Shown: positions 10,207-64,000 of the stretch, one piece after another
How the letters are laid out: each line of letters opens with the position of its first letter
Position numbering within the stretch: the first letter of the stretch is position 1
Assembly: GCF_016811995.1 (NCBI RefSeq)
Contig: NZ_CP069159.1
Coordinates: forward strand, 3,534,001 to 3,598,000
Length of the DNA: 64,000 nt
From: Citrobacter sp. R56
GTDB lineage: Bacteria > Pseudomonadota > Gammaproteobacteria > Enterobacterales > Enterobacteriaceae
Reading direction: 5' to 3'
Position numbers and translations under genes: made by a program
Notes under the pieces: model-generated
What the model was told of the DNA's origin: nothing
Database searches by the model: none
The model's input: the letters and a program-made list of their open reading frames with translations, nothing else

Positions 10207-11595
10207 ATGGAACAGGTAGAACCCGGTAACGACAAATTACTCCTTACAGAATGGCAGACGTTGCTACACCAAACCTCTCCTGAGGTTCACGAGATTTTGA
10301 CCTCGTTAACCGACGAGGAGATTCGTCATCTGGTTACCGTCTTTTATGACTATATGCTTTCACACGCCGAGAGCGCGCTGTTCCTCAATACCGAGCAGGT
10401 GGCAACCCGACTCAGCCACAGCATGTTTCACTGGTTACGCAGCGTGTTGGGAAGCGCGCAGGAAGATCTCCACCAACTGCTGGCTAAACAGCGCGATATT
10501 GGCGTCGTTCATGCCCGTATTGGCCTGCCGATAGACCTGGTCGCCCGTGGCGCACGTAGATTGAAAGATGAGCTGTATCGCCTGCTAAAGGCGAAATCCG
10601 TTTACCCGACGACCGTGCTCAGCGATGCGATCTGCTTTAGCAGTCTGGCAATGGACACGGCGATAGAGGCTATGACCGTCTCGTATTCCCCCAATTACCA
10701 AAACTCAATGAACACGCAGGAACAGTATCGCCTGTTGACGATTTACGATGATGTCAACGTAGAGCGGGAACGCCAGATCCGCTCCCTGACGGACTGGGAA
10801 AATCAGTTTATCTACAATATCGCCACCGGCTTGCCTGTCGAAGAGCTGATCTTTTTGTCGAAATCTGACTTTGGTATGTGGCTATCGCATAAGGGAAAAC
10901 ACATTCTCGGTAACGGAAAACTGCTTTCCGGGATGGAGCAGTTGATACAGCAGATCGACGGCAACCTGACTGAGGTGTTACTGAATGGCCAACAGCCTTC
11001 AGCAGACGAACGGATGAGTTTGCTCCAGGATATTCGCCAGTTATCCGCGCAAATCCACTTTCTGCTGTCCTCCATGTTTGAAGAGCTGGTGAAACAAGAG
11101 AACGGCAAAGATTCGCTGACGCAGTTGCTTAACCGCCGCTTTATTCCCACCATTATGCGCCGTGAAATTTCCCTTGCGCTGCATTCGCGTAAACCGTTCG
11201 TGCTGGCCATGCTCGACATTGATTATTTCAAGCAGATCAACGATCGCTACGGGCATAATGCCGGAGATACCACGCTGAAAAATGTCGCCGCGGTCATTTA
11301 TGAACATATCCGCAGCAGCGATTACGTTTTCCGCTACGGCGGCGAAGAGTTTATGGTACTGCTTGTCGAATCCGAGGTGTCGCAGGCGAGCATCATTCTG
11401 GAAACGCTGCGGACAAAAATTGCCGCTTTACGGATTTCGGCATCACCGGTGGAAACCTTCTCGGTCACCACCAGCATCGGCATCGCCGAGTACGATTATC
11501 ACCCGGACTACAAACAGCTGATCGAGAAGGCAGACCAGGCGCTCTATCTCGCGAAAAGCAACGGACGAAATCGCGTGGAAATTTATCGCCGCTAA
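10207..11595 (+). CDS. Globin-coupled diguanylate cyclase (DosC-like)
   Basis: 462 residues. The layout matches E. coli DosC (about 460 residues). An N-terminal globin sensor (1-155) carries the proximal heme-histidine motif VVHARIGLP, His about 102. A linking helical region follows, and a C-terminal GGDEF domain carries GGEEF at 378-382, preceded five residues upstream by an RSSD product-inhibition site. It would make c-di-GMP from two GTP in response to oxygen or another heme ligand, in the cytoplasm. c-di-GMP usually favours sessility over swimming, which could matter next to a flagellar island. The start at 10207 has GGCGG/GGAAAG close upstream and gives the family length. The ATG at 10183 has none. 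Confidence 0.88.
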   Translation: MEQVEPGNDKLLLTEWQTLLHQTSPEVHEILTSLTDEEIRHLVTVFYDYMLSHAESALFLNTEQVATRLSHSMFHWLRSVLGSAQEDLHQLLAKQRDIGVVHARIGLPIDLVARGARRLKDELYRLLKAKSVYPTTVLSDAICFSSLAMDTAIEAMTVSYSPNYQNSMNTQEQYRLLTIYDDVNVERERQIRSLTDWENQFIYNIATGLPVEELIFLSKSDFGMWLSHKGKHILGNGKLLSGMEQLIQQIDGNLTEVLLNGQQPSADERMSLLQDIRQLSAQIHFLLSSMFEELVKQENGKDSLTQLLNRRFIPTIMRREISLALHSRKPFVLAMLDIDYFKQINDRYGHNAGDTTLKNVAAVIYEHIRSSDYVFRYGGEEFMVLLVESEVSQASIILETLRTKIAALRISASPVETFSVTTSIGIAEYDYHPDYKQLIEKADQALYLAKSNGRNRVEIYRR

Positions 11596-11600
11596 CCCCT

Positions 11601-13217
11601 TTATGCCTCTGACTTTTCGGGCGGCATTGCGGGTGAGGCATACCAGTTTTCCTTCGCCACCATCACCGCCCCTTTCGGTTGCATCACAAAGTTCGGCGAC
11701 ATGATTTGCACATTGAATTCGTTGAAAACGTCCTGAATATTGCTATGCAAGGCATCGCGGGCAGCCGCCAGCGACGTATCGGGCTGCAGACGAACCTGTA
11801 GCTCATAAGAGATGTACCAGTCCATCAGACTGAGCTGGCGCACCAACGGCGGCTGCGTATGATCGATGCCCTGGGCGCGGTTGGCCGCCAGCTCAAGCAT
11901 GGCATGCACCTGACGCCAGGGGGTGTCATAACCGATAGTGACGCCGACGGTTAAATTGACGCCGCCGTCCGGATTTTGCGCGCTGAGATTGGTAATTTTG
12001 CCACTGACCACCACCGCATTGGGAACCGTGACGACGTAGTTTTCCCGGGTAATAATCTTGGTAGCCAGCATACCGATTTCACTGACCAGCCCTTCGTTGT
12101 CGGCAATACGGATCACATCACCTTTGCGCAGCGCACGTGAATAGATGAGTACCAGCCCGCTCATGGCGTGATTCATCACCCCCGCAGAACCGAGTGTGAG
12201 CATCAAACCGAAAAAGACGCTAATGCCTTTAAACGCCAGTGAATTCGCGCCGGGAAGAAAAGGATACGCCGCCGAAAGCGCAAACAGCCACACCACCACG
12301 GAGATTAACTTACGGGTCGCGCCAACCGTTTCAGGGTGAATGCCCGGCAACGTCAACCGCCCGGCCTCCACCTGATTCAGAATCACTTTGAGCAATTTTA
12401 AAATCAGCGCGGTGATGGCAAAGATGAGCAGGACAATCATTAATCCCGGTAATGCGGAGACAATCGACAGCGCGATTTCCCTGACCACCCGCACTGACCA
12501 GTCCCCCAGTGACTCCCCCCACACCCGGGTCCATGGGAACAGGCTGAATACCCAGCTTAGCCAGACATAGAACGCAATTATACCGAGCAAAATCATCAGC
12601 AATGCATACAATCGGGTTTCAATCGCACCGACGAAACGCCGCCAGTTTTGCGGGACCCAACTGCGGTTTTCGAAAATTTTACGTCGATAATGTCGACGTA
12701 CCCACCGCCAGGAGCGGTAAGCGCCATACCAGAACAGCGTGAGTCCCAGCAAACCTGCAGCGGTTTTCACAGCGGCGAGGGCAAGCCAGCCGCGGTCATA
12801 CTGGTCGCGCAGCGAGGTGCGCTGGATCTCCATCCGGGCCAGTACGCGCTGTGCCGCCTGGTCGAGCGTCAGGTCGTCCCCTTCATCCAGATCCCCTTCC
12901 GCCAATAGCATGACCGGTTTACCGTTCATCACGATCAGCCGTCCCTGCTGGCGATAACGGGTGACAGGCACAATTTTCAACGGCTCGCGCACGTCGGCCT
13001 GGGTGAAATTACGCAATGTATTGTGGATACGCAGAACGCGTTCTTCTGGCGTGGTCAGGCCAAACTTCGCCTGCAACATGACAATGGGCTGATGAAAAAT
13101 ATACACCGTGCGCGCACGCTCTTGTTCTGTGGGCTGCTGTCGGGGTTCCGCCGCCTGGGAAGGGAGCGCCAGAATGACCATAAAACATGCCAGTATAGCG
13201 AGCAGCATCCTGTTCAT
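11601..13217 (-). CDS. MscS-family mechanosensitive channel with periplasmic N-terminus
   Basis: 538 residues from the ATG at 13215-13217, chosen because it begins a signal peptide (MNRMLLAILACFMVILALPSQA). A periplasmic domain of about 130 residues is followed by several membrane helices and the MscS core: a pore helix region with alternating Gly/Ala (FGLMLTLGSAGVMNHAMSGL), the beta domain (RKGDVIRIADNEGLVSEIG) and the C-terminal cytoplasmic cage. It opens under membrane tension and releases solutes during osmotic downshock. It converges with the diguanylate cyclase gene with only five bases between the stops. Confidence 0.88.
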   Translation of the reverse strand: MNRMLLAILACFMVILALPSQAAEPRQQPTEQERARTVYIFHQPIVMLQAKFGLTTPEERVLRIHNTLRNFTQADVREPLKIVPVTRYRQQGRLIVMNGKPVMLLAEGDLDEGDDLTLDQAAQRVLARMEIQRTSLRDQYDRGWLALAAVKTAAGLLGLTLFWYGAYRSWRWVRRHYRRKIFENRSWVPQNWRRFVGAIETRLYALLMILLGIIAFYVWLSWVFSLFPWTRVWGESLGDWSVRVVREIALSIVSALPGLMIVLLIFAITALILKLLKVILNQVEAGRLTLPGIHPETVGATRKLISVVVWLFALSAAYPFLPGANSLAFKGISVFFGLMLTLGSAGVMNHAMSGLVLIYSRALRKGDVIRIADNEGLVSEIGMLATKIITRENYVVTVPNAVVVSGKITNLSAQNPDGGVNLTVGVTIGYDTPWRQVHAMLELAANRAQGIDHTQPPLVRQLSLMDWYISYELQVRLQPDTSLAAARDALHSNIQDVFNEFNVQIMSPNFVMQPKGAVMVAKENWYASPAMPPEKSEA

Positions 13218-39607: not shown

Positions 39608-39745
39608 CCCTGAACCCGCATCCCAGCGGGTTCTCCCGGCGTTACGGAAACACGTCGGCAATTTTCAGCCGGACTCTTCCCACACCAGGCCTATTGTGCG
39701 ATTAGCGCACCTTTAAGCAGCCAAACGGAAATCACTGAAAGTCAG
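39608..39745 (-). repeat. Structured intergenic repeat, copy 3 (partial)
   Basis: Matches 31809-31939 in the same orientation: shared blocks CCCTGAACCCGCATCC, TTACGGAAACACGTCGGCAA, CTTCCCACACC and CCAAACGGAAATCACTGAAA, around a divergent centre. It fills the gap between the converging motB and LafW-position genes and includes the stop codon of the latter. Confidence 0.82.
39613..39632 (+). terminator. Hairpin after motB, within repeat copy 3
   Basis: AACCCGC-atccca-GCGGGTT. The same hairpin exists in copy 1 at 31814-31833. It probably ends the motB transcript. No T-run follows. Confidence 0.45.
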
Positions 39746-40821
39746 GGTTCTTCTCGCCAGCGCTCGCCGACGGCCAGGATGTTCTGTACGGTGCCCCGCT
39801 GGACATTAGCCTGGGTGGTGAACAACACCAGCGGATGAGATGACTCCTTATCAAAGCTGGACATCACATGGGTCATCAGGGCATCGAGTTCATCCGTGCC
39901 CAAATCGTTGGGCTGTGCCTGCAATTGCCCCATCCATTGACTCTGCATCTGCTGCAACAGGAAGAAGTGCGACTCTATCTCACGGCCCAGACGACCGATT
40001 CGCCCCTGGGCCAGGGTGAGATCCTCTTCATTGCCTAACTTCCAGAGGCCGATTTCTCGCCAGGAGATATCAGGTTCCAGCTGCAACTTAATCGGCTCCC
40101 CCGTCGGAATGCGGACGCCCCCACCCCGGACGTAGAGCTGTCCGTTGACCGCCTTCCACTGCTCGATCGGCACACTAAACACCAGCCCACCCTCTTCACC
40201 GGGTCGCGAGCGGATCCCCAGTCGCGCAAATGCGCGGCCAATCTGGCGGATGCGGACATCCAGCAATGAATCTCCCTTAATGCTAAGTCCGGCACGCACC
40301 GGGCGCCCCCCCAGTAATATCAGCTCAAGGTGCTCATCACGCCCCGCAGGCGTCAGCAGGTTCAGGCCAGGAATGGAAAACTCCCGGATATCCTGATAAC
40401 CGAGTAGTGCCGGTCGAATCCCCTGGGTCAACAGACGCAGGCCGTGATAATGAGTCTGGAACGGGATCCGGGCCACTAACCGCTTCTGCTCCTGTAACTG
40501 GTTCGTCCAGCCCTTGAAGGAGCCTGCTTCTCTGATGGCGGCGAAGAGCTGCAACATATCGCGCAACCCCTGTCTGACCAGCAACAGCGCGCGCAGGGTT
40601 ATCTGCACCGCCGTCGCCTGCTGCTGGAGAGACCCCACCTGCGCCCAAAAACGGTGTAAATCATAGCGTCCCGGCAGAGGGCGTAATAGCGGAGCAGGCA
40701 GTTGCTCCAGCTCCGGGCCTTTTCGTGATTCTGTTACAGGGGAGCCCAGAGGCGTCGTAAAACGGCGCCTCTGAAGCCCGTCAAGCTGACCGGTGCGTGG
40801 GGTAGTATTAGCAACCTTCAT
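39742..40821 (-). CDS. Unrecognised protein at the LafW position of the hook operon
   Basis: 359 residues, no signal peptide or membrane helix. I do not recognise the family. The gene starts three bases after the flgL stop, as the last gene of the flgB-flgL operon, where lateral (Flag-2) clusters carry lafW, annotated as hook-associated. The N-terminal 100 residues are basic and proline-rich, and the middle (LELILLGGRPVRAGLSIKGD, GLVFSVPIEQWKAVNGQLYV) looks like beta structure. The C-terminus contains long helices and resembles FliK-like C-domains only loosely. The stop codon falls inside a repeat copy. Confidence 0.55.
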   Translation of the reverse strand: MKVANTTPRTGQLDGLQRRRFTTPLGSPVTESRKGPELEQLPAPLLRPLPGRYDLHRFWAQVGSLQQQATAVQITLRALLLVRQGLRDMLQLFAAIREAGSFKGWTNQLQEQKRLVARIPFQTHYHGLRLLTQGIRPALLGYQDIREFSIPGLNLLTPAGRDEHLELILLGGRPVRAGLSIKGDSLLDVRIRQIGRAFARLGIRSRPGEEGGLVFSVPIEQWKAVNGQLYVRGGGVRIPTGEPIKLQLEPDISWREIGLWKLGNEEDLTLAQGRIGRLGREIESHFFLLQQMQSQWMGQLQAQPNDLGTDELDALMTHVMSSFDKESSHPLVLFTTQANVQRGTVQNILAVGERWREEP

Positions 40822-50947: not shown

Positions 50948-52228
50948 ATGTCTGACGCATGCCTGACCCAACATCTCGCCATCATCGCCAGCCGCTGGCC
51001 CGCGCTGGCCACAATACTTAGCCAGACGCCGCCACTGTCCTCGGCAAGCATAATGGAAGGGCATTGCGGAACCCTGCTGGTCGACGGCATCCAACTGACC
51101 AGTCGCCACGACCGGATAAGCGAAGCGCAGCAGCAGGCGAATAGCCTGCCCGTAAAGCCGCATCTCAATGTCTATGGCGTCGGGCTTGGCTGCCTGCCGC
51201 GCATCCTGCTGCAGCGTCCCACGTTGACACAGCTCAATGTCTTCATCATGAACCGCGCGCTGTTCCTGCTGACCCTGACTCTGCTGGAAAACCAGGACTG
51301 GCTTCAGGATCCCAGAGTCTGCCTGGCGTTGGCCGCCGACGAAAACGAGATTCGCCTGCCCTTCTTTGCCTTACCTGGCGAGCTACGCCTGGCGGAAGAC
51401 GCGGCAAGCGGAATACGTGACCGCCTGATCAGGGAAATTACACTTCCCCATACTAATCGTCGTTACGAGCAACATCTCCCTGCGCTGCGACAACGGCTTG
51501 CCGACAACCGTCACCTGCTCAAGCGAGACGGTGATGCGGCCTCGCTCTTCGCCAGCGCGCCGGGTCGCCAGGCGTTCGTTATCGGGGCTGGCCCCACCCT
51601 GAAGTCACATCTGCCCCGCTTACAGGCGCTGCAGTGCCAGCCGGAACGACCGCTGCTGATCGCCGTCGACACCGCCTGCCGCGCCCTGTTTGCGCACGGC
51701 ATCCAGCCAGACTGGGTGGTTTCCATCGACCACCTGATTGATGGAGAGAAACTTCCGCCCGCAGACTGCGGGCTGGTGTACTTCCCGCTGGTGCCCACCG
51801 GAACGTTGACGGCCTGGCGCGGAAAACGCCTGGCCGCCTATTCCAGCAGCCCCCTTTATCAACCGCAGCGTAAATCGCAGCCAAAGGCGCTGCTCTATTC
51901 GGGAGGAAGCGTCATTCATCCCGCCGTCGATCTCGCGGTGCAGATGGGCTGTCTGGACGTTATCCTGCTCGGTGCAGACTTTGCCTTTCCAGGCGGAGAA
52001 ACCCATACGGGCTGGGCAGTCGGCGCTCTGAATACCACTATTGAACAGGCAAAACACTGGGTGCTGAATGGGCATGATCAGCGCATTCGTACCAACATCA
52101 GTTTTACTGGCTATCGTATTCAGCTTGAACGCTATATTGCCGCGCATCCCGAGGTTTGCTTCTGGAACGGCAGTCGGGAAGGCGCCAGGATTGCGGATTG
52201 CCGTTATCATCCGGAGTTCACCTCATGA
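50948..52228 (+). CDS. maf: Maf-type motility accessory factor (DUF115) glycosyltransferase
   Basis: 426 residues. Contains the DUF115/MptE-like core: FVIGAGPTLKSHLPRLQ (about 210-225), LIAVDTACRALFAHGIQPDWVVSID, and VILLGADFAFPGGETHTG. Maf proteins are required to attach nonulosonic acids (pseudaminate or legionaminate) to Ser/Thr of flagellin before export. Shorter than Campylobacter Maf (over 600 residues), missing the large N-terminal extension. AAGAGAGC precedes the ATG. The gene lies 19 kb from the sugar operon and shares its sigma-54-type promoter pattern. Confidence 0.85.
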   Translation: MSDACLTQHLAIIASRWPALATILSQTPPLSSASIMEGHCGTLLVDGIQLTSRHDRISEAQQQANSLPVKPHLNVYGVGLGCLPRILLQRPTLTQLNVFIMNRALFLLTLTLLENQDWLQDPRVCLALAADENEIRLPFFALPGELRLAEDAASGIRDRLIREITLPHTNRRYEQHLPALRQRLADNRHLLKRDGDAASLFASAPGRQAFVIGAGPTLKSHLPRLQALQCQPERPLLIAVDTACRALFAHGIQPDWVVSIDHLIDGEKLPPADCGLVYFPLVPTGTLTAWRGKRLAAYSSSPLYQPQRKSQPKALLYSGGSVIHPAVDLAVQMGCLDVILLGADFAFPGGETHTGWAVGALNTTIEQAKHWVLNGHDQRIRTNISFTGYRIQLERYIAAHPEVCFWNGSREGARIADCRYHPEFTS

Positions 52229-53784: not shown

Positions 53785-55119
53785 ATGATCTTGCTGCTTG
53801 AATCAGATAAAGTGTGCGCAGACGAAATTCTCACTCATCTCAGTGAAGAATATGCTCGTCGCGTAGTCTGGCAGCCAGGTTTGCTGGATATAGCCTCTCT
53901 AAGCGCCACTATTCCGAGCCTGGTCATTCTGGGCCGGGGTCTGTCTCAGGTGCAGGCCCTTAGCTATATTCGCCAGTTGCATACGTTACCTATCCTGTTG
54001 ATTAGCCCTATGGATCAAGCCGAATGGGCCAGCACGGCCTTAGGCAACGGCGTCAGTGATTATTTGCTCTATCCCTTTAGTCTCCAGCAACTGAATCAAC
54101 AGATAACCAGCCTGCTCAATGCAAACTCGCTGCAGACCCGCGGCATGATCATGAGTTCACCGGCCTCCCGCCGTCTGTTGACGATGGCGCATCGGGTTGC
54201 TCTGGCCGAAGCGCCAGTGCTCATCAGAGGCGAAACGGGGACGGGCAAGGAGATGTTGGCCCAATTTATCCACACCAACTCCAGCCGGAAAGAAGGCCCC
54301 TTTGTGGCCGTCAACTGCGCCGCGATTCCCGAGAACATGCTGGAAGCCATCCTGTTTGGTTACGTTAAAGGGGCATTCACCGGCGCTTACACAGGACAAG
54401 CCGGTAAGTTTGAACTGGCCAACAACGGCACCCTCTTTCTGGATGAGATTGCAGAGATGCCTCCCCCTCTGCAGGCGAAGCTGCTGCGCGTGTTGCAGGA
54501 GTGGGAAGTCGAACGTCTGGGAAGCAACAAGGTCATTCCACTCAATGTCCGACTCATCACGGCCACCAATCAGAATCTGCGGGAAGCGGTGAGTCAGGGG
54601 CGTTTTCGCGAGGATCTTCTCTATCGTCTGGATATCTTGCCGCTCGTCATTCCACCCCTGCGCCAGCGCCGGGAAGAACTGGACCGATTGATCGCTCACT
54701 TCGTGCAAAAACACGGGGATCAGGCGTTTGCTCCCGCCATTAAATTAAGCCCGTGTGCGCAGAAAGCCTTATTAGCGCACAACTGGCCGGGCAATATTCG
54801 GGAACTGGAGAACCGCGTACAACGTGCGCTGGTGATGTGCCGCAGCACGGTGCTGCTTGCTGCTGATTTCGATTTACCTTCTGTTCCACCTACGCAGGAA
54901 ATTATTGTTGCCGCCCCACAAACTCAGGTTGAACTGACCCCTTCGGCCTCCCTACAGGAGAGCCGCAAACACGGTGAGTTCCAACACATTTTAGACACGC
55001 TACGCCATTGCCGCGGACACCGGAGTATGACCGCCAAAGCCCTTGGCATTACCCCCAGAGCTCTGCGCTACAAACTCGCCGAGATGCGGCAAAGAGGCAT
55101 CATCACTGATGATGCGTAA
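53785..55119 (+). CDS. lafK: Sigma-54-dependent flagellar activator LafK
   Basis: 444 residues. FleQ/FlrA-type enhancer-binding protein. An N-terminal receiver-like domain (1-115) lacks the phospho-acceptor aspartate (VILGRG at the expected place). The AAA+ domain has Walker A GETGTGKE (149-156), the sigma-54 contact loop GAFTGA (196-201) and Walker B TLFLDEIAEM. A C-terminal Fis-type helix-turn-helix follows (RHCRGHRSMTAKALGITPRALRYKL). As the only such activator in the window, it is the likely activator of the sigma-54-type promoters at 31.4, 33.4, 50.0 and 50.9 kb. Confidence 0.92.
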   Translation: MILLLESDKVCADEILTHLSEEYARRVVWQPGLLDIASLSATIPSLVILGRGLSQVQALSYIRQLHTLPILLISPMDQAEWASTALGNGVSDYLLYPFSLQQLNQQITSLLNANSLQTRGMIMSSPASRRLLTMAHRVALAEAPVLIRGETGTGKEMLAQFIHTNSSRKEGPFVAVNCAAIPENMLEAILFGYVKGAFTGAYTGQAGKFELANNGTLFLDEIAEMPPPLQAKLLRVLQEWEVERLGSNKVIPLNVRLITATNQNLREAVSQGRFREDLLYRLDILPLVIPPLRQRREELDRLIAHFVQKHGDQAFAPAIKLSPCAQKALLAHNWPGNIRELENRVQRALVMCRSTVLLAADFDLPSVPPTQEIIVAAPQTQVELTPSASLQESRKHGEFQHILDTLRHCRGHRSMTAKALGITPRALRYKLAEMRQRGIITDDA

Positions 55120-55145: not shown

Positions 55146-55475
55146 ATGAACACGATTAATGACTCACAGCAGGCAATGATGCAGCGGATGACGACGATGC
55201 AAACGGCTGCCCAGCAACCGCTGTTTGCCTCCGAACAGCAAAACAGCACGCAAAACACCTCCTTCGAGAGTGTCTTTCATGCGGCCCTGAATGGGGTAGA
55301 CAGCCACCAGCAAAATGCAGCAAACCTGGCGACGCAAATCGAAACGGGTGCCAGCGACGACCTGACTGGCGCGATGATCGCCAGTCAGAAAGCCAGTCTC
55401 AGTTTTTCGGCCCTTACCCAGGTCCGCAACAAACTGATGACGGCCTATGACGAAGTCATGAAGATGCCTTTGTAA
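55146..55475 (+). CDS. fliE: Basal-body MS-ring/rod junction protein FliE
   Basis: 109 residues. NTSFESVFHAALNGVDSHQQNAANLATQIETGASDDL and the conserved C-terminus SLSFSALTQVRNKLMTAYDEVMKM match FliE at normal length. It connects the MS ring to the rod. It follows lafK by 26 bases, so the two are probably co-transcribed. Confidence 0.95.
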   Translation: MNTINDSQQAMMQRMTTMQTAAQQPLFASEQQNSTQNTSFESVFHAALNGVDSHQQNAANLATQIETGASDDLTGAMIASQKASLSFSALTQVRNKLMTAYDEVMKMPL

Positions 55476-55499
55476 GGCCGGGGACGTAGTGAGTAACGA

Positions 55500-57173
55500 A
55501 TGAGGCAAAAATTCAAAACGATTTGGGACAATATCAGCAAGCCGCTGCCCGCAATCACCCTATTACGGAATAAAGTACCCCAGCTCATGCTATTGGGCAT
55601 GTTGACCTGTCTGATAGCGGTACTCGTCGTACTGTTTCTCTGGTCTTCCCAGGGTAATTATCGGCCCCTCTATGGTCAGCAGGAGCGCTTCGACAGTGCT
55701 CAAATCATGGCCATTCTCGATCAGGAGCGCATTGCTTATCGTCTGTTGGATACGACAGGACAGGTGCTGGTTGAAGAAGATAAATTATCGCAGGCGCGAA
55801 TGTTGCTGGCGGCAAAAGGCGTACAGGCCAAACTGCCGGTAGGACTGGAATCGCTGGAGCAAGAGTCAACCCTGGGAACCAGTCAGTTCGTTGAAAATGC
55901 CCGTTACCGTCGTGGGTTAGAGGGAGAGCTGGCGCGTACCATCATGGGCATGCAGGGGATTGACTATGCCAGGGTCCATCTGGCTATCCCGGACAAAATG
56001 ATCTTCCTGCGTGGCAATGAGGAGAAACCGTCGGCCTCCGTGATGCTTGAGCTTTCCGCTGCAAACTCCCGGATGGAGCCAGGGCAAGTGCTGGCTATCG
56101 TGAACCTGGTCAAAGGCAGCGTCTCCAATCTCACCACCGAAAACATCTCTGTCGTCGATCAGTATGGTCATCTGTTGACACAGGATCTCAACGATGAACT
56201 TTCCGGAACCCGGTTGACCAGCCATCAACTCGACTATCAGAAGCAGGTTGAGCGCAGTTATGAACGTCGCGTCAGCGAGATGCTGCAACCCGTGCTCGGT
56301 GCCAACAATTACAAGGTGCAGGTCACGGCGCACCTGATCTTCGACAACGTGGAAGAGACCCGGGAATCCCTCGACAAGAGTCCTGTCGTACGCGAAGAGC
56401 GTCTGCAGAAAGACGCCTCGCAGGGAGGCCAACTGAGCGGAATCCCCGGCGCCCTGAGCAACCGTCCGCCGGTCACAGATCCACAGCAACAGGGCAATCA
56501 GGCACAAACGCCACCCGCCACGGCTGAGCGTCTGGTTAATGAGAAAGATGAGCAGCAGCGTCGCTATGATGTGGGACGCACGATCACCCACACCAAATAC
56601 CAGCAGGGGCGGCTGAATAATCTCAGTGTCTCCGTGGTGCTGAATCAGACCGTGTCACCGGAAAAAGGCTGGAGCGCTGAGCAACTGACCAATATCCGGC
56701 AGATGGCGCTGGATGCGGTGGGCTTCGATCAGGCGCGGGGCGACCAGCTCAGCCTGAATGTGTTCCCTTTCTCGGAAGATGGCATTAATCCTGCGCTGGA
56801 TAGCCAATGGTGGCAGGAGCCGGTTTTACTGATCTACGCCCGTTATCTGGTCGCCACCATTCTCGGTCTGTGCCTCATCTTCTTTGTGATCCGCAAGTTG
56901 ATGCAGCACCTGATCCAGCGCTCCCCGGCGAATGGCAGCGATAACGCAGATAACGCGTCTGCCACGCAAGTGACGTCCGACAAGAGAGAAAGCGAAGAGA
57001 GCGAATACTTCAGAAAACACAACCGTAATCTGGCGTTTGATAAAGTTCGCCTGAATGAACTTCCTGACACGAATTCGCCTTTGCGGGATAAATTGGCCCA
57101 CTTGCAGCTGCTGGCGGACCATGACCCCAAACGCGTCGCCGAAGTATTAGAACAGTGGATGAATAGCAGGTGA
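55500..57173 (+). CDS. fliF: MS-ring protein FliF
   Basis: 557 residues. Two membrane helices (about 28-48 and 440-460) flank the periplasmic ring-building motifs (YRPLYGQQERFDSAQIMAILDQ; TSQFVENARYRRGLEGELARTI). The cytoplasmic tail (RLNELPDTNSPLRDKLAHLQLLADHDPKRVAEVLEQWM) binds FliG. It is the structural base of the motor. Confidence 0.96.
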   Translation: MRQKFKTIWDNISKPLPAITLLRNKVPQLMLLGMLTCLIAVLVVLFLWSSQGNYRPLYGQQERFDSAQIMAILDQERIAYRLLDTTGQVLVEEDKLSQARMLLAAKGVQAKLPVGLESLEQESTLGTSQFVENARYRRGLEGELARTIMGMQGIDYARVHLAIPDKMIFLRGNEEKPSASVMLELSAANSRMEPGQVLAIVNLVKGSVSNLTTENISVVDQYGHLLTQDLNDELSGTRLTSHQLDYQKQVERSYERRVSEMLQPVLGANNYKVQVTAHLIFDNVEETRESLDKSPVVREERLQKDASQGGQLSGIPGALSNRPPVTDPQQQGNQAQTPPATAERLVNEKDEQQRRYDVGRTITHTKYQQGRLNNLSVSVVLNQTVSPEKGWSAEQLTNIRQMALDAVGFDQARGDQLSLNVFPFSEDGINPALDSQWWQEPVLLIYARYLVATILGLCLIFFVIRKLMQHLIQRSPANGSDNADNASATQVTSDKRESEESEYFRKHNRNLAFDKVRLNELPDTNSPLRDKLAHLQLLADHDPKRVAEVLEQWMNSR

Positions 57174-57182
57174 TTACCAGCC

Positions 57183-58217
57183 ATGAATGAAGAGTACGAG
57201 CAACAACCGCTCAAAAGTGCCGAACAGGCAGGTCTACTGCTGTTAACACTGAGCGAGCACCAGGCTGGCAACATTCTGCGCAGCCTGAGTCGGGAACATG
57301 TGCAGGATATCGTCCGGGCCATGGCAGAAGTCGGCCATGTCAAGAATCAGCACCTGGACATGGCATTGCAGCGGATGTTCATCGACTATCGCGAACTTAG
57401 CGGCATCTCTCGTGCCTCCCGTGGCTTTCTTGAGAGAACGCTCGATGTCGCCCTTGGGCCAGAACTGGCCAAAGGGGTGATCAACGACGTTTACGGAGAA
57501 CAGATTCGGGAAACCATGCATCAGTTACAGTGGATCTCCCCCACCCTGATCGCCGCCAATCTGCAACATGAAATGCTGCCGTTGCAGGCAACCTTCCTCG
57601 CGTTGCTGCCGCAGGACGTCTCTGCCGAGGTGATGAAGCACCTGCCACAAGCGCAGCACGACAGACTGATTCTGAACATGGCTAACCTGCGGGAAATCAA
57701 CCAGAACATGGTTGCGGAGCTGGAGAAAATCATTCAGCAGTGCCTGACCATGGTCCAGCAAGGCGTTCAAACGTCGGTGAGCGGTGTCGAACAAGCGGCG
57801 GGCCTGATTTCCCGTTACCCAGGCAACAGCGCCAAATTGCTTGAGACGGTGCGCGAACATGACCAGGGACTGGCCGAAGAAATTGAGAACAGCATGTATC
57901 GCTTCTCCATTCTTGAGCGCCAGCCAGAGGCCACCATCGTCAGACTCTGCCAGGAAGTGGAGCCAGAGGTGTGGGCCAGAGCCTTCAAAGGGGCGTCGCC
58001 ATCCCTGCGCCAGGCCATATTGCGCTGCCTGCCAAAACGTCAGGCCAATGCGATTCAGGAACAGATGCAGGTCATGGGCGGCCTCCCCGCCAGCGTGGTC
58101 AGAGGTGCGGAAGCGGAGATCATGGCCAAAGTGCGTGAGCTCATCGCAGACAATGAAAATGCAGAAGGAGGCGAGCCTTTCGAGTTTCGCCTCTTTGAAG
58201 AGAAAGTGTTGGAGTAA
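57183..58217 (+). CDS. fliG: Rotor/switch protein FliG
   Basis: 344 residues. N-domain (SAEQAGLLLLTLSEHQAGNILRSL) binds FliF, and ARM domains (LLPQDVSAEVMKHLPQAQHDRLILNMANL) and a C-terminal torque domain (LRQAILRCLPKRQANAIQEQMQVMGGLPASVVRGAEAEIM) follow. The C-terminal tail (EGGEPFEFRLFEEKVLE) is more acidic than in E. coli FliG. It follows fliF by nine bases. Confidence 0.95.
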   Translation: MNEEYEQQPLKSAEQAGLLLLTLSEHQAGNILRSLSREHVQDIVRAMAEVGHVKNQHLDMALQRMFIDYRELSGISRASRGFLERTLDVALGPELAKGVINDVYGEQIRETMHQLQWISPTLIAANLQHEMLPLQATFLALLPQDVSAEVMKHLPQAQHDRLILNMANLREINQNMVAELEKIIQQCLTMVQQGVQTSVSGVEQAAGLISRYPGNSAKLLETVREHDQGLAEEIENSMYRFSILERQPEATIVRLCQEVEPEVWARAFKGASPSLRQAILRCLPKRQANAIQEQMQVMGGLPASVVRGAEAEIMAKVRELIADNENAEGGEPFEFRLFEEKVLE

Positions 58218-58220
58218 CCC

Positions 58221-59087
58221 ATGTCACAGCCTGGCAAAAAAGACGGACCCCCACGCAGTGTCCATCGCTACCATTTTCCGCCGTTATCCCAGCAGGAACC
58301 CCTGCCGGAGGAGCAACCTTATGCCTCCCCACAACAGATCGCAGCCAAATATCAGGCCCTGATGGAAGAGGGTCGCGATGCCGGTTTTGCTGAAGGTTTG
58401 CGCCAGGGACTGGAGCAAGGCCATCCTTTGGGCCAGGAGCGAGGATTTCAAGTGGGTATGCAGGAAGGGCGAGAAGCCGGGAGCCAGCAAGCTTACGAAG
58501 AGAGCAAACCTAAACTGGATGACGCGTTTCATCAGGTCGGCCAGCTCTATGATTCCCTTGAGGCCACACTGCAAGAGACGCTGACCGGGCAAAGGGAAAC
58601 CCTCTGCCACCTGATTTCACAGATCTGCCGACAGGTACTGCGCGCCGAACTCGCGCTCAATCCGACGCAGATCCTTGGGCTTATCGAAGAGACCCTGGCG
58701 ATGTTACCGAAGCCGCAGGGCGCGATTTCTATCCGCCTGGACCCAGGCACCCACACACTGCTCAAGGCATGTGCACCGGAAGCACTGAAAAACTGGGATC
58801 TGCAATCCGATCCCCTGCTCTCCGCCGGTAGCTTCCATATTCAGACGGGACTCGCTGAAGCGGAAAGCCAACTGGATGCACGCATCGATCTGTGTGTCGA
58901 TCAGTTGCGTCGACAGCTGGTCGATACCCCAGAGCTGAACGCACTGGAGGCGCCCGCCATCACCGCGGAAAACCAGACGATATCCTCCACAATCACGCCG
59001 CATAACTTGCCCTGGCGCCAGGAGGAGACCTTCTCTTCTCTTTCGCTGCCCGCAGACAAGTTCAGCGACGAAGACTTAAAAGCTTAA
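58221..59087 (+). CDS. fliH: Export ATPase regulator FliH
   Basis: 288 residues. Glycine-repeat coiled coil typical of FliH (GRDAGFAEGLRQGLEQGHPLGQERGFQVGMQEGREAG, about 52-92) and a C-terminal V-ATPase-E-like domain (LISQICRQVLRAELALNPTQILGLIEETLAML). Forms the stalk that links FliI to the C ring. It starts three bases after fliG. Confidence 0.93.
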   Translation: MSQPGKKDGPPRSVHRYHFPPLSQQEPLPEEQPYASPQQIAAKYQALMEEGRDAGFAEGLRQGLEQGHPLGQERGFQVGMQEGREAGSQQAYEESKPKLDDAFHQVGQLYDSLEATLQETLTGQRETLCHLISQICRQVLRAELALNPTQILGLIEETLAMLPKPQGAISIRLDPGTHTLLKACAPEALKNWDLQSDPLLSAGSFHIQTGLAEAESQLDARIDLCVDQLRRQLVDTPELNALEAPAITAENQTISSTITPHNLPWRQEETFSSLSLPADKFSDEDLKA

Positions 59088-59091
59088 CCCC

Positions 59092-60423
59092 ATGCGCGCC
59101 CTGAAAACGTTGCTTAATCAACTTGAAAAGGACGAGTATCAGGTGCCTCCCGCCCAGATTTACGGGCGGCTGGTGCGCGTCACGGGCCTGCTGCTGGAGG
59201 TTACAGGGTGCCCCCTTTCTATTGGGCAACGCGCGCTCGTTGAAACCAGCAATGGCACCTGGATCGAGAGCGAAGTGGTGGGTTTTAATCAGGATCGCAC
59301 CTTTCTGATGCCCGTCGAGCAGGTTACCGGCCTGTTCCCTAGTGCCCGCGTCTCACCGCTGCAAGAAGACAGCGAACTGGTGGTCGGGCCCGCGCTGCTC
59401 GGTCGCATCCTGGATGGTCTGGGTCGCCCTCTGGACGGTCTCGGCCCTCTGACGGGAGAACGCATTTCTTTGCATCAACCGCCGCTGAATCCGCTCGCAC
59501 GCCAGCCCATCACCACCCCTCTGGATGTCGGCGTGAAGGCCATCAACGGCATATTGCCGCTGGGTCGCGGCCAACGAATCGGACTGTTTGCGGGCAGCGG
59601 CGTGGGCAAGAGCGTGCTGCTCAGCATGATGACCCGTTATACCGATGCCGACGTGGTCGTGGTCGGTCTGATCGGGGAACGCGGACGCGAAGTTGCCGAA
59701 TTCCTGCAACATACGCTCGGGGAAGCGGGACGCCGTAAGGCGGTTGTCGTGGTTGCCCCTGCTGATGTCTCTCCCCTGCTCAGACTCAGAGCCTCCCAGG
59801 TCTGTCACCGGATTGCCGAAAGCTTTCGCGATCAGGGCAAGCACGTGCTGCTGTTGATGGACTCACTGACCCGTTATGCCATCGCTCAGCGCGAAATCGC
59901 CCTGTCGTTGGGTGAACCGCCAGCCACCAAAGGATATCCCCCCTCCGTCTTCACCCAGTTGCCGCAACTGGTGGAGCGGGCAGGCAACGGCTATCACCCA
60001 CAAGGCAGCCTCAGCGCCATCTACACCGTGTTGGTCGAAGGGGATGACCACAACGATCCGATCGCGGACGCCGCGCGGGCGATCCTCGACGGTCACATTG
60101 TCCTGCGTCGTGATATCGCCGAACAGGGGATTTATCCGGCCATTGATGTCGCCGCGTCGGCCAGTCGCGTCATTCCGTTAATCTGCTCCACCGCCCAGGT
60201 TCAGCAAATCCAACGATTTCGCCGCTATTACAGCCTGTATCAACAGGTGCGCGAACTGATCCCGTTGGGCGGTTATCAGGCCGGTCACGACGAGGAAATG
60301 GACAAAGCCGTGACCCTGTTCCCGCAGATGCTGGAGTATTTACAGCAGCCTGCCCAACAGGGGGTAAACCTGCAACAGACCCAGACGTTGCTACAGGCGC
60401 TAATGGAGGAAGATAAACGATGA
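59092..60423 (+). CDS. fliI: Flagellar export ATPase FliI
   Basis: 443 residues. F1-beta-like ATPase with Walker A FAGSGVGKSVLL (Lys near 173), the type III signature GERGREVAEFL and Walker B VLLLMDSLTRYA. Energises substrate loading at the export gate. It ends overlapping the fliJ start (ATGA). Confidence 0.97.
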   Translation: MRALKTLLNQLEKDEYQVPPAQIYGRLVRVTGLLLEVTGCPLSIGQRALVETSNGTWIESEVVGFNQDRTFLMPVEQVTGLFPSARVSPLQEDSELVVGPALLGRILDGLGRPLDGLGPLTGERISLHQPPLNPLARQPITTPLDVGVKAINGILPLGRGQRIGLFAGSGVGKSVLLSMMTRYTDADVVVVGLIGERGREVAEFLQHTLGEAGRRKAVVVVAPADVSPLLRLRASQVCHRIAESFRDQGKHVLLLMDSLTRYAIAQREIALSLGEPPATKGYPPSVFTQLPQLVERAGNGYHPQGSLSAIYTVLVEGDDHNDPIADAARAILDGHIVLRRDIAEQGIYPAIDVAASASRVIPLICSTAQVQQIQRFRRYYSLYQQVRELIPLGGYQAGHDEEMDKAVTLFPQMLEYLQQPAQQGVNLQQTQTLLQALMEEDKR

Positions 60424-60848
60424 AATCCTTGAGTACATTGCACCGCCTGCAGAGCCACAAGCTGGACAATGAGAGCAAGGCGCTGACGACGCTGGAAACG
60501 CGCAACGTCGAACTCCAGCGTTCCCTCGACGTCCTCGGGCAGTATCGCCGCGAGATGTCGCGACTGCCCACCTACGGCTCGGCCTTTGCTCTGCATAACC
60601 GCAACATCATGCACCGCCAGTTGGGCGACCTCATTGATAAGCAGCACGAAGAAAAAGTCGCGCTCAAACTCTCCATCGCGCAACAGAAGAAAGTCGTGCT
60701 GGACGCCTTCGTCGCCAGAAAAAGCAGCGAGATCATCCTCGAACGACAGCGGGTCCGGCAGTCCTTTGAAACACAAAGGCAAGAACAAAAGATCCTGGAT
60801 GAGCTGGCGCTCAACCAGGTGCGGCTCGCAGCGCGGGATAAGCGCTAA
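60420..60848 (+). CDS. fliJ: Export chaperone/central stalk FliJ
   Basis: 142 residues, one continuous coiled coil (LQSHKLDNESKALTTLETRNVELQRSLDVLGQYRREM...HRQLGDLIDKQHEEKVALKLSIAQQKKVVLDAFVARKSSE). FliJ is the gamma-like stalk of FliI. Assignment rests on coiled-coil pattern, length and place after fliI. Confidence 0.88.
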   Translation: MKSLSTLHRLQSHKLDNESKALTTLETRNVELQRSLDVLGQYRREMSRLPTYGSAFALHNRNIMHRQLGDLIDKQHEEKVALKLSIAQQKKVVLDAFVARKSSEIILERQRVRQSFETQRQEQKILDELALNQVRLAARDKR

Positions 60849-60897
60849 GCCGTAAACCCATCACAACCCTTTTTGAACCCTATTGAGACACACAACC

Positions 60898-61941
60898 ATG
60901 CGTAAGCCACTTAAGATCGCCATCGATGACGGTTCGACCAACGTCAAGGTTAGCTGGATAGCCAACAAAACCCTGAAAAGCATCATCTCGCCCAACTCAT
61001 TTCGCAAAGACTGGAAGAGTGCTGCCCTGCTCAAAGGCAAGATGGTCTACAACTACGAAATAGGGATCAACAAATACACTTACGATCCGACGTCAGAGAA
61101 ATCCCTCTCCACCACCCACATCGACTATCAGTATGGCGATCTCAACCTGCTGGCGGTGCATCACGCCCTGCTCCAGACCGGTCTTCCTGCCTGTGATGTC
61201 GCGATCACCGTGACGCTGCCCATTACCGAGTACTATCAGCAAGATGACTGTCAGCGTAACGAAGCGAACATTGAGCGCAAAAAGCAGAACCTGATGCGTC
61301 CCATCAGTCTGAATAAAGGGGAGCTGTTCAACATCGTCAGCGTTGATGTGATGCCCGAAAGCCTGCCCGCCATCCTTACCCGACTGGTCAATTCAGGGGT
61401 CAACCCGTACACCAAAACGCTGGTCATCGACTGTGGCGGAACAACCCTGGATATGGGGCTGATCGTTGGCGAGTTTGACGAAGTTTCCGAGGTCTACGGC
61501 AACCGCGCGCTCGGTGTCTCCCTGATCACGGATGCTGCCCGCACCGCGCTGGCCGCCGCCGACAGCGACTCCAGCTATCTGGTAGCAAACGAACTGATCA
61601 AGCACCGCCACGATGATGTTTTTGTGCGTGAAGTGATCAACGATGAGTCGCAGATCCCCCGGATTCTGGAGAAACTTGAGCGCAAAATTGAGGAGTTGGG
61701 GCACTTCGTTGCAGAAGAGGCGAAAAAATTTGCCCGTAACCCCAACCGGGTCTATCTGGTCGGCGGTGGCGCAAATCTGATCTACCCCACTATTCAGGCC
61801 AGTTATCCTACCCTGGGCAAACGCGTGATCCTCGTCGAAGAGTCCCAATTCGCACTCTCTCGCGAAATCTGCCTCTACATCAGCGATGAAGAGAAAGTGT
61901 TCAGCGAAACGCCGGTCGAATCAGAGGCAAGCAATGACTAA
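60898..61941 (+). CDS. parM: ParM-type actin-like ATPase (plasmid R1 family)
   Basis: 347 residues from ATG 60898. Strong point-by-point likeness to R1 ParM/StbA: IAIDDGSTNVKVSW (phosphate 1), IISPNSFRKDW, LLAVHHALLQTGLP, TLPITEYYQ, ANIERKKQNLMRPISLN, VMPESLPA, VIDCGGTTLDMG (phosphate 2), RALGVSLITDAA, SSYLVANELIKHRHDD and LVGGGANLI (adenosine). ParM makes dynamic filaments that push plasmid copies apart. Here it lies 49 bases after fliJ and overlaps a ParR-like gene, inside a flagellar operon. The 49-base gap contains no array of direct repeats such as a parC centromere. Function in this context is unknown. Confidence 0.9.
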   Translation: MRKPLKIAIDDGSTNVKVSWIANKTLKSIISPNSFRKDWKSAALLKGKMVYNYEIGINKYTYDPTSEKSLSTTHIDYQYGDLNLLAVHHALLQTGLPACDVAITVTLPITEYYQQDDCQRNEANIERKKQNLMRPISLNKGELFNIVSVDVMPESLPAILTRLVNSGVNPYTKTLVIDCGGTTLDMGLIVGEFDEVSEVYGNRALGVSLITDAARTALAAADSDSSYLVANELIKHRHDDVFVREVINDESQIPRILEKLERKIEELGHFVAEEAKKFARNPNRVYLVGGGANLIYPTIQASYPTLGKRVILVEESQFALSREICLYISDEEKVFSETPVESEASND

Positions 61942-62593
61942 TTCAGTCAGAGAAGTCCAGGTAACCCTCACGCTGGATCCACAGCAGGCGAGTGATAATC
62001 TGGCGCTGGCGACATTACAGCGCTGGTATCAGCGCGCTGAAATCCTGAACAAAGAGACGGACAATTTTGATTTCTTCAGTCTGCCGTTGCACAAAGACAT
62101 CTATCTGTCAGGGTTGCTGCTGTGCCTCCTGGAACCCAATCTGGTCAAATTTCTCTCCCGAAATCTGCAACTTAACAACCTGAACAGCGAGTTTCTCCAG
62201 CACAGTCTGGAGGAACACCGGCTCATCGCCGGTCGCGAGGCATTACCCACAGAACCGTCCGGACAGTTGACGCCGGACGAGCTGGCCACCCAGATTACCG
62301 ATAAGCTCACCCCGTTGCTCAGCGCGCTGGGGAAATCGACGGTTCAACGTAAGCAGCGTGATGCGTTGCAAGCCTGCGTCGATATGCTGACGCAGCAGTT
62401 GCAGGAACAGAACGGACTTTTACAACAGCAGGCACACCTCCTCAACAAACTGACGCATGTGGGTGGGCAGGTTCAGTCAGCCCCGGCAGCGGGTAATCCC
62501 CCGGCTCCCCAGGTTTCCGGAGAGGTCCAGCGACATGATCTTTCGGAAACGGCAGCCAAAGTGCGCAAAGTCAGGGCAAAAGGCATCTTCTAA
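61934..62593 (+). CDS. ParR-like adaptor protein
   Basis: 219 residues from ATG 61934, overlapping the parM stop by eight bases. The N-terminus VQVTLTLDPQQASDNLALATLQRW and the following KDIYLSGLLLCLLEPNLVKFL resemble the ribbon-helix-helix region of ParR/StbB. A coiled coil (QACVDMLTQQLQEQNGLLQQQAHLLNKL, about 155-180) and a basic C-terminal tail (AAKVRKVRAKGIF) follow; the ParR C-terminus is the part that binds ParM filaments. About twice the size of R1 ParR, so it may bind something other than a centromere. Identity rests on context plus weak sequence likeness. Confidence 0.6.
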   Translation: MTNSVREVQVTLTLDPQQASDNLALATLQRWYQRAEILNKETDNFDFFSLPLHKDIYLSGLLLCLLEPNLVKFLSRNLQLNNLNSEFLQHSLEEHRLIAGREALPTEPSGQLTPDELATQITDKLTPLLSALGKSTVQRKQRDALQACVDMLTQQLQEQNGLLQQQAHLLNKLTHVGGQVQSAPAAGNPPAPQVSGEVQRHDLSETAAKVRKVRAKGIF

Positions 62594-62658
62594 GCCCCGT
62601 CGATGATAAGCATTTCTGGTAAGCGCGTCTGATGCCAAATCTCATCAACAGCGTCGCG

Positions 62659-62689
62659 GGCAAACATCGTGTGATTCACGATGTTTGCC
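62659..62689 (+). terminator. Perfect hairpin between the parM/parR pair and fliO
   Basis: GGCAAACATCGTG / CACGATGTTTGCC: 13-bp perfect stem with a 5-base loop, 33 bases before the fliO ATG. The following sequence has only scattered T residues. It may end or attenuate the fliJ-par transcript, or be an operator. Confidence 0.55.
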
Positions 62690-62721
62690 ATATTCACTCT
62701 ATTTTGATCCGGAGTTCCATC

Positions 62722-63108
62722 ATGTCTCTTCGCTGTCTGTTTCTGCTTCTGTTACCACTGCCCGCGCTGGCGGCACCACTGAATCAGGATATTAGCGCCT
62801 TCAAGCCGTGGTTTATTACCTGCCTGGCCGTTCTGCTGATCGGTGCCGTGGTATTTCTGCTGGCGAGGAAGAGAGGGCGCGCAAACTGGCGAAGCGGAGG
62901 AGAGATGCGAGTCCAGTCGGTACTTTCATTGGGCATGAAAGAGAAACTGGTGCTGGTACAGGTGGAAGACCAACGTTTACTGCTGGGAATCACCCAACAG
63001 CAGATCACCCTAATCAGCAACCTGACCCGGGAAAATCCTCAGCCGCCGCCTGCGGAGTTTGCGCAAGTCTTTGAAACCCTCGGCGCATCCGACAGCGATA
63101 AAAAATAG
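62722..63108 (+). CDS. fliO: Flagellar export-gate assembly protein FliO
   Basis: 128 residues from ATG 62722 (GGAG seven bases upstream; the longer frame runs through a hairpin and is rejected). A signal-like N-terminus (CLFLLLLPLPALAAP) is followed by a membrane helix (FITCLAVLLIGAVVFLLA) and the cytoplasmic FliO motif (MRVQSVLSLGMKEKLVLVQVEDQRLLLGITQQQITLI). FliO helps assemble FliP. fliM/fliN, which often precede it, are missing here. Confidence 0.88.
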   Translation: MSLRCLFLLLLPLPALAAPLNQDISAFKPWFITCLAVLLIGAVVFLLARKRGRANWRSGGEMRVQSVLSLGMKEKLVLVQVEDQRLLLGITQQQITLISNLTRENPQPPPAEFAQVFETLGASDSDKK

Positions 63109-63119
63109 TCCTGGACGGC

Positions 63120-64000
63120 TCAGGGCGACGTCGTCTGCGGTGTGACGGGATTCTCCGTCTTCACCCGATTCCACTGACTCAGTGGCTCAATGCTGGAACG
63201 CCAACCGAGAGACGTTGTCTGCGGCAACGCCGTTTTCTTCGCCCCCTCATCCTGGGTGCTCTTTTTGTCGTTCGCCGGACGCGCTGAATAGAGATCCACC
63301 GCCCCTGGCGTTCTCTGCCACAGCCCAACACCCCATCCCAGGGATTCCAGATCCTTGTCGGGGAGCGCTCGCCGCTTTGCAATCTGGGGAGGTGCTTTCT
63401 CTTGCGGCTGGGGGAGATTGTCACTGCGAGTCCCCAGCACCTGACGCGCCCGTACACCCCATCCCGCTGGTAGCAACAAGGCAACGCGGCTGCCCCGGGG
63501 CGCTACCGCGTTTTCCAGCCCCGCATTGTAAAAACCCAACTCTTCCGTGCTGCGCCCGAGTTTTCTGGCCAGCCAGGCCAGACTGATGCCGTCTTCAACA
63601 TGCAGAGCGACCAGACGGGACGCCTCGGGTACTGCAGGTAACTGAAGATGACCGGTCCGGTATAAGCGCACCAACGCCAGTAACCTGGGCACATATTGTC
63701 TGGTCTCGTCTGGCAAAGAGAGGGACCAAAAATCGGTCTGTCTGCCCTTCGCTTTGTTTTGCTCGATAGCATTCTGAACCGTCCCTTCCCCGGCATTGTA
63801 TGCAGCCAGTGCCAGTAACCAGTCACGTCCGAACAAGCTATACAGATAACTCAGATAATTGAGCGCTCCACGGGTGGAGGAGATCAAATCCTTGCGCCCG
63901 TCGTACCAGTCATAGCGGATCACACCATACTGCTTCGCCGTTTTGGGCATCAACTGCCAGGGGCCGACCGCCCCCGCAGGCGATTCGGCATACGGGTCGT
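63120..64000 (-). CDS. MltD-like lytic transglycosylase, 5' end beyond the window
   Basis: At least 293 residues; the gene begins right of base 64000. The visible part opens with AESPAGAVGPWQLMPKTAKQYG, the SLT-domain motif of MltD-type enzymes. The catalytic Glu should lie just upstream, outside the window. AAYNAGEGTVQNAI and the tyrosine/arginine region ETRQYVPRLLALVRL are also typical. A LysM-like stretch (LVALHVEDGISLAWLARKLG...LGFYNAG...VALLLPAGW) follows, and the C-terminal 90 residues are low-complexity. It cleaves peptidoglycan in the periplasm. Its place suggests it opens the wall for the rod, which FlgJ here cannot do. Confidence 0.87.
   Translation of the reverse strand, partial: DPYAESPAGAVGPWQLMPKTAKQYGVIRYDWYDGRKDLISSTRGALNYLSYLYSLFGRDWLLALAAYNAGEGTVQNAIEQNKAKGRQTDFWSLSLPDETRQYVPRLLALVRLYRTGHLQLPAVPEASRLVALHVEDGISLAWLARKLGRSTEELGFYNAGLENAVAPRGSRVALLLPAGWGVRARQVLGTRSDNLPQPQEKAPPQIAKRRALPDKDLESLGWGVGLWQRTPGAVDLYSARPANDKKSTQDEGAKKTALPQTTSLGWRSSIEPLSQWNRVKTENPVTPQTTSP

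Follow-up and report, generated by a model that had tools for sequence, protein, structure and literature searches.

The 64,000-nucleotide stretch of Citrobacter sp. R56 DNA analysed here (the window) contains a flagellar cluster that starts about 32 kb in and includes flagellin, FliD, FliS, FliK, FliL, a sigma28-type factor, MotA/MotB and the flg set. A LafK-like sigma-54 activator (53785..55119, +; Pfam Sigma54_activat and HTH_8), for which we assume the name lafK, is positioned ahead of fliE–J. The genes fliE, fliF, fliG, fliH and fliI (55146..60423, +; Pfam), from whose spacing we infer a single operon, are followed by fliJ (60420..60848, +; Pfam FliJ, 35.1 bits, cut-off 28.4), the upstream neighbour of parM. 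The downstream neighbour of parR is fliO (62722..63108, +; NCBIfam FliO, 55.9 bits, cut-off 55.25; Pfam FliO also matches a longer ORF starting at 62632), and flhA, flhB, fliR, fliP, fliN and fliM lie on the opposite strand just past the window end. The genome carries two FlhA genes, therefore the window cluster represents a second flagellar system. It is separate from the other system and has its own sigma-54 activator, sigma28-type factor, flagellin and motor genes. From this gene make-up, with a sigma-54 activator before fliE–J and a flagellin-to-motAB block as in flag-2, we call it lateral (flag-2-like), and filaments on surfaces are predicted.

Several further features accompany the cluster. 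A 13-bp perfect inverted repeat, found by sequence scan, lies between parR and fliO (62659..62689); Citrobacter sp. Awk 4 retains it with one arm base changed, and none was seen in Pluralibacter or Buttiauxella. A 359-aa protein encoded after flgL (39745–40821, −) matched no Pfam or NCBIfam family. Its homologues also follow flgL in the lateral clusters of six other genomes (G181, G500, G338, G493, G476 and G277) and adjoin parMR in both genomes of family f12. A lytic transglycosylase (SLT) gene (63120–63953, −) is convergent with fliO and beside flhA, and in G181, G500 and G338 a relative follows motB within the lateral cluster. An MptE-like protein adjoining flgA (50948–52225, +) shows a weak, below-cut-off likeness to the flagellin modification protein PseD.

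The gene parM encodes a 347-aa actin-like ATPase of the R1 family (60898..61941, +), assigned by Pfam, by a PDB match to R1 ParM and by its place in a ParM tree. It runs from an ATG at 60898 to a stop at 61941 and begins 49 bases beyond the fliJ stop codon (60848). The protein matches Pfam StbA_N (PF06406; 202.7 bits, cut-off 24.6) and the C-terminal model PF21523 (131.2 bits, cut-off 27.4), and its residues 7–320 are matched by R1 ParM (1mwk, E 1e-69) in a PDB search. The R1 active-site positions D7, T10, E148, D170, G172 and G173 are kept in 27/27 ParMs of the clade described below and in 21/21 other ParMs of the tree set. These findings bear out the original prediction of an R1-type ParM just past fliJ, overlapping a ParR-like gene and with fliO next. 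At an E-value threshold of 0.001, parM is the single PF06406 match in the window genome. The gene appears to be under strong constraint, with dN 0.043, dS 1.37 and dN/dS of about 0.03 against the Pluralibacter copy (one pair, dS near saturation).

The start codon of the parR-like partner (61934..62593, +; 219 aa) is at 61934, resulting in an 8-base overlap with parM. The window ParR by itself matched no Pfam family. Among 22 aligned clade ParRs, PF10784 (Plasmid_stab_B) matches 12 (best 6.3e-7), and a profile built from the 22 has pB171 ParR (2jd3, E 0.0018) as its best PDB match. The alignment shows a conserved, ParR-like N-terminal part and a conserved tail, with a linker of variable length between them. 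The clade ParR ORFs span 167–352 aa, 31/38 of them within 194–272 aa. The longest, of 352 aa, belongs to G403 (L069 10812–11867, +), where several genes separate parR from a moeB match at the locus end. No Pfam match to an FlhF-type SRP-GTPase or FlhG-type MinD/ParA domain was found in the window ParM or ParR.

At the C-terminus, 36/38 clade ParRs end in [KR]G[ILV][FW], compared with 0/13 plasmid ParRs; the two f12 ParRs finish in KKIF and KKLF instead. In the window ParR this candidate ParM-binding tail corresponds to the last eight codons (KVRAKGIF; 62567..62590, +), identified by comparing clade and plasmid ParR ends. R1 ParR binds ParM through its C-terminus, therefore the conserved clade tail is probably, by analogy, the ParM contact.

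The N-terminal strand and helices expected of a ribbon-helix-helix domain align in the clade ParRs, but a predicted model of poor quality (mean pLDDT 62.5) contained no strand. In several members the strand resembles that of plasmid ParRs in the alignment (a second alignment used 21 of the 22 sequences, Photobacterium omitted), thus the clade ParR may still bind DNA. The N-terminal net charge was considered as a sign of lost DNA binding and dropped, as it showed no difference from plasmid ParRs (p 0.45). The plasmid-like strands, together with the relation of these ParRs to plasmid ParRs and to the structure of pB171 ParR, favor a reading in which ParR binds DNA and acts on lateral flagellar genes, as a regulator or a centromere-like anchor, with ParM as a motor or switch. 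However, at the start of this strand the window ParR has E where the others have K or R, and the search for repeats discussed below also counts against this DNA-binding role.

The pair extends well beyond this strain. A ParM match at E 1e-3 was found in 18 of 196 relatives, the window genome counted, and the named relatives include Citrobacter sp. Awk 4 (99% identity), a Pluralibacter metagenome-assembled genome (93%), Buttiauxella agrestis (92%) and Ferrimonas (70%). An even draw of 394 genomes across the order gave 24 matches at E 1e-90, of which 23 are at 61–100% identity. The remaining genome, G238 (49%, with one flag-1-type FlhA), was excluded from the order count. A sample of 369 genomes from the class, searched at E 1e-40, gave no match besides the window genome. 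Restriction of the pair to a single strain is contradicted by its presence in Citrobacter, Pluralibacter, Buttiauxella, Ferrimonas and others, and insertion in one strain was rejected on the grounds that other genera carry it.

In 12 genomes parMR lies within a flagellar cluster, in four arrangements. The order fliJ-parM-parR-fliO was seen only in the window, Citrobacter sp. Awk 4, the Pluralibacter genome and Buttiauxella (where fliO was assigned by Pfam); it is conserved across these four, but the wider pattern is an association of ParMR with lateral flagella and not this order. In the two f12 genomes (G223 and G345), parMR follows fliI, and the fliJ–fliO and after-fliI positions may represent one ancestral position. 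Four members of the window's family (G010, G043, G277 and G327; Pfam in 3/4, the fourth by homology) have parMR after motA-motB and an NlpC/P60 peptidase. In two others, G146 and Ferrimonas, it stands at the head of fliM-N-P-R-flhB-flhA, divergent from motY-lafK. The NlpC/P60 gene, which encodes a wall peptidase and separates motB from parM, is at 10776–11630 (−) in locus L029, 8692–9495 (+) in L030 and 10877–11641 (−) in L073.

The last two arrangements favor an action of ParMR on the lateral motor or export side, in stator or C-ring loading or wall remodelling, and not in placement. However, the neighbors vary between lineages and the features of ParM and ParR give no pointer to motor or export. 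In the other genomes, parMR is unlinked to flagellar genes within the stretches read. Genus g150, which we take to resemble Aeromonas, has an identical region upstream of parM in 17/20 parM-bearing genomes. The ten g150 loci with neighbors read carry molybdenum-cofactor and transport genes, one of them with Pfam MoeA, ThiF, MoaE and a hydrolase beside parMR. The neighbors are different again in G338, G266, G493, G218, G476, G183, G230 and Photobacterium; for G507 the locus read is short.

The link to lateral flagella also holds in genomes in which the two loci are apart. In g150, 20/37 genomes carry parM. All 37 have a polar-type FlhA that is 49–51% identical to the window lateral FlhA used as query, and a second FlhA (60–62% identical to it) is present in exactly the 20 parM genomes; the 17 without parM have only the polar type (Fisher 6e-11, with tips that are not independent). 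In three single-contig g150 genomes, parM and lateral flhA are separated by 1.96, 1.95 and 1.11 Mb. In 15 of the 17 parM-negative genomes moeB adjoins the hydrolase gene directly with no parMR between; of the other two, one stops at a contig edge and one has a 0.56-kb gap. Scored on a tree built from the polar flhA region, the shared state switches 13–14 times, close to the shuffled mean of 12.9, indicating that it is scattered over this tree, and at least 11 changes remain when nodes under 95 are collapsed. A moeA-moeB tree of 29/37 g150 genomes gave 8 changes (shuffled mean 9.4).

The same association holds across the order. With lateral-type FlhA defined by a score of at least 800 bits, 50/394 genomes carry one, 21 with parM and 29 without. 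Lateral-type FlhA is therefore found in 21/23 parM genomes compared with 29/371 without parM (Fisher 4e-19), and with g150 removed in 9/11 compared with 29/362 (Fisher 2e-8). The two exceptions are G223 and G345, in which parM is inside a flagellar cluster; given their FlhA scores (750 and 747 bits) and the single FlhA of G223, this system may not be lateral. A clade ParM is accompanied either by a lateral-type FlhA in the genome or by a flagellar cluster around parM. The Photobacterium replicon that bears parM has no FlhA on that replicon. In the reverse direction, a PF06406 search that does detect the window parM gave 0/30 in the 29 parM-less lateral genomes plus one with a partial FlhA, and none in 14 control genomes. 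Since 29/50 lateral systems are without such a ParM, it is not a general requirement of lateral flagella.

Pairwise distances of ParM and lateral FlhA are correlated (Spearman 0.69, pairs not independent), and the agreement of the two trees is partial. The two trees part in their deeper branches, and the ParMs linked to motB in the window's family fall within the g150 ParMs, indicating that ParM was in some cases transferred separately from lateral FlhA. Full co-inheritance of the two proteins was rejected on the basis of these partly discordant trees. Together, the results make it very likely that ParMR is functionally tied to lateral flagella. Because the pair co-occurs with the second, surface-movement type of flagellum, ParMR is probably, on genomic grounds, an accessory of lateral flagella that serves them rather than a plasmid. 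This strengthens the earlier suggestion that a ParM system was recruited to flagella, as the pair occurs in other genera, in varied cluster positions and with lateral flagella even when unlinked.

The alternative offered by the original prediction, a plasmid-derived or plasmid-borne partition module, fared less well. The window contig has 4,652,769 bases, therefore parMR is chromosomal there. Contigs of 4.1–5.1 Mb also carry parM in G010, G146, G181, G254, G500, G218, G230, G223, G277 and Buttiauxella, and the remaining parM genomes are draft contigs. That the pair is a leftover from plasmid partition, or its passenger, with no flagellar role is suggested by the abundance of the family on plasmids, where at least 5000 records match, and by a Vibrio breoganii plasmid ParM at the edge of the clade: in the ParM tree, the 27 clade sequences used (of 38, with 11 g150 ParMs left out) form a group that includes it, with support of 87. 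However, 4999 of the best 5000 plasmid records are under 60% identical to the window ParM, compared with 61–99% for the clade. Among the matches listed, the sole plasmid record above 60% is a 2.1-Mb Photobacterium replicon, and the best-ranked other plasmid ParM is 54.5% identical. This identity gap, the constraint on parM, the repeated joint presence and absence with an unlinked flagellar locus and the lack of parC-like repeats found all disfavor a plasmid remnant, which we consider very improbable.

The original prediction also noted no parC-like array upstream of parM, and none was found within 60000–64000 of the window; the tandem repeat nearest to the pair (TRF, 59401–59441) is within fliI. 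Upstream of clade parM, 0/25 regions exceeded all 30 shuffles in 10-mer repeats, compared with 7/13 regions upstream of plasmid parM. Since 6/13 plasmid controls failed, this test misses about half of true parC sites. Downstream of clade parR, 1/25 regions (G277) exceeded the shuffles. The 25 regions were drawn from 38 by dropping 13 near-identical g150 regions. A 300-bp scan of the lateral clusters, allowing one mismatch at most, gave nothing clear, and it barely separated the plasmid controls, which gave only 3–4 repeats; high counts in G338 were due to runs of N. The upstream result argues against binding of ParR to DNA at lateral flagellar genes, and we rate that role as rather doubtful despite its homology to plasmid ParRs.

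Promoter-like sites provide a further connection to flagellar expression. Sites of the form TTAAAG-N15-GTCGCT, which resemble sigma28 promoters, are found ahead of flgK in the lateral clusters of 5/5 genomes and in some genomes also precede flagellin, fliD or flgM; similar sites occur in the G183 and G277 lateral clusters. A matrix was built from 15 lateral flagellar sites, zero from parM, and scored against 465 background regions. The motif was first noticed before parM and then before flagellar genes, and the sites for the matrix were picked with a consensus partly shaped by parM sites, therefore the test is not blind. Before unlinked parM, background regions scored as well in 0/465 cases for G507, G493 and G218, 2/465 for G338, 3/465 for G266 and 15/465 (as well or better) for G476. 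The 17 g150 genomes with the common upstream region have one shared site, equalled or exceeded by 4–32/465. Nothing stood out before parM in G183, G230 and Photobacterium, or before plasmid parM. Where parM is among flagellar genes, no high-scoring site was found and none was expected, except in G345, whose score was equalled by 16/465.

A late, flagellin-type promoter is what one would look for at motor or filament genes rather than at genes for an initial placement step, which counts against a role in placement, and its presence in several unlinked lineages adds to the case for an action on the motor or export side. Given the varying neighbors and the uninformative protein features, we still hold such an action to be improbable. 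The flagellar-type promoter is also compatible with a service to the swarmer cell, in which ParMR, made together with lateral flagella, would assist DNA segregation or cytoplasmic organisation in the long surface cells with their multiple chromosomes. This possibility accounts for co-occurrence and promoter without any basal-body contact and fits the several ParR N-terminal strands that are still plasmid-like. However, it leaves unexplained why structural flagellar genes surround parMR, and in several different arrangements, and parC-like repeats were not found at the usual place. We consider it unlikely.

We return to an action on the lateral flagella themselves and propose how it might work. 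ParM would form ATP-driven filaments, to which the conserved ParR tail would bind, and the N-terminal part of ParR would anchor the filament at lateral basal bodies, on the side facing the cytoplasm, instead of or in addition to binding parC DNA. Through their growth and shrinkage, the filaments would distribute the numerous lateral basal bodies over the length of the cell and apportion them to the daughter cells. ParM filaments are known to push apart ParR-bearing cargoes, and lateral flagella are many per cell, so that distributing basal bodies and dividing them between daughters is the most natural task for the pair. To our knowledge, no basal-body partner of ParR has been described. That the module belongs to the lateral flagellar system and that its filaments spread and share lateral basal bodies has, in our judgement, about an even chance of being correct. 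More tentatively, and with the balance slightly against it, a ParM actin system freed of plasmids and parC may have become dedicated spacing and inheritance machinery for lateral flagella, gained and lost with them repeatedly within one order.

If the proposal is true, it would provide a clear example of an actin for plasmid segregation that was co-opted to handle a different cargo. ParMR is a concrete, removable candidate for regulating lateral flagellation, and a chromosomal gene annotated as "plasmid segregation" can in fact be a flagellar one.

Within the literature covered, which left most subscription journals and bioRxiv outside its scope, we found nothing linking ParM, ParR or StbA to flagella or swarming. 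The flag-2 and flag-3 loci of Enterobacterales, of which flag-2 resembles the window cluster, are described in papers whose main texts contain ParM and StbA 0 times (PMC6993521, PMC7526173). A table of Citrobacter koseri flagellar cluster 2 places a 180-aa ParR, of class "Unknown", a few locus tags from fliL-2/fliK-2 (PMC13268207), and the portions of that paper available to us held no comment on it that we could find. In Shewanella, ParM/StbA family genes are reported as attachment sites of I-F3 CRISPR-associated transposons (PMC12452197, in part). Chromosome-encoded ParM–ParR pairs were described in Desulfitobacterium and Clostridium, where roles beyond plasmid segregation were suggested (Ali et al. 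2025, PMC12270681); their main text does not contain the string "flagel". Chromosomal ParMs are thus already known, without flagella.

Compared to ParMRC of R1 (type II), the clade pair has the same ParM domains and active-site residues, the two-gene parM-parR unit, and a ParR with an N-terminal part, linker and short C-terminal tail. Unlike ParMRC, it is not on a low-copy plasmid, showed no repeats of the parC type where ParMRC has them and is tied in its presence to lateral flagella, and the plasmid ParRs span 105–224 aa (n=13) and lack the [KR]G[ILV][FW] tail. The chromosomal cParM pairs share the chromosomal location but belong to other bacteria, and the Clostridium ParR is described as binding a DNA site (PMC12270681). 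Recruitment of a partition ATPase to a protein cargo has precedent in the ParA-like proteins taken over for chemoreceptor clusters and carboxysomes, one of which is encoded within the chemotaxis operons of bacteria with polar flagella (PMC9178275); these are Walker-type ParAs and not actin-like ParMs. The closest parallel in task is FlhF/FlhG, which place and count polar flagella, as a 2025 review sets out (PMC12826062). The sections available to us call FlhG contacts in lateral systems unclear and ask whether enteric flagellation without FlhF/FlhG is regulated or random, and the main text mentions ParM and actin 0 times. ParMR would share with FlhF/FlhG the task of an NTPase system setting flagellar position and number. 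FlhF/FlhG, however, are an SRP-type GTPase and a MinD-type ATPase, whereas the ParMR pair would be their actin-type counterpart.
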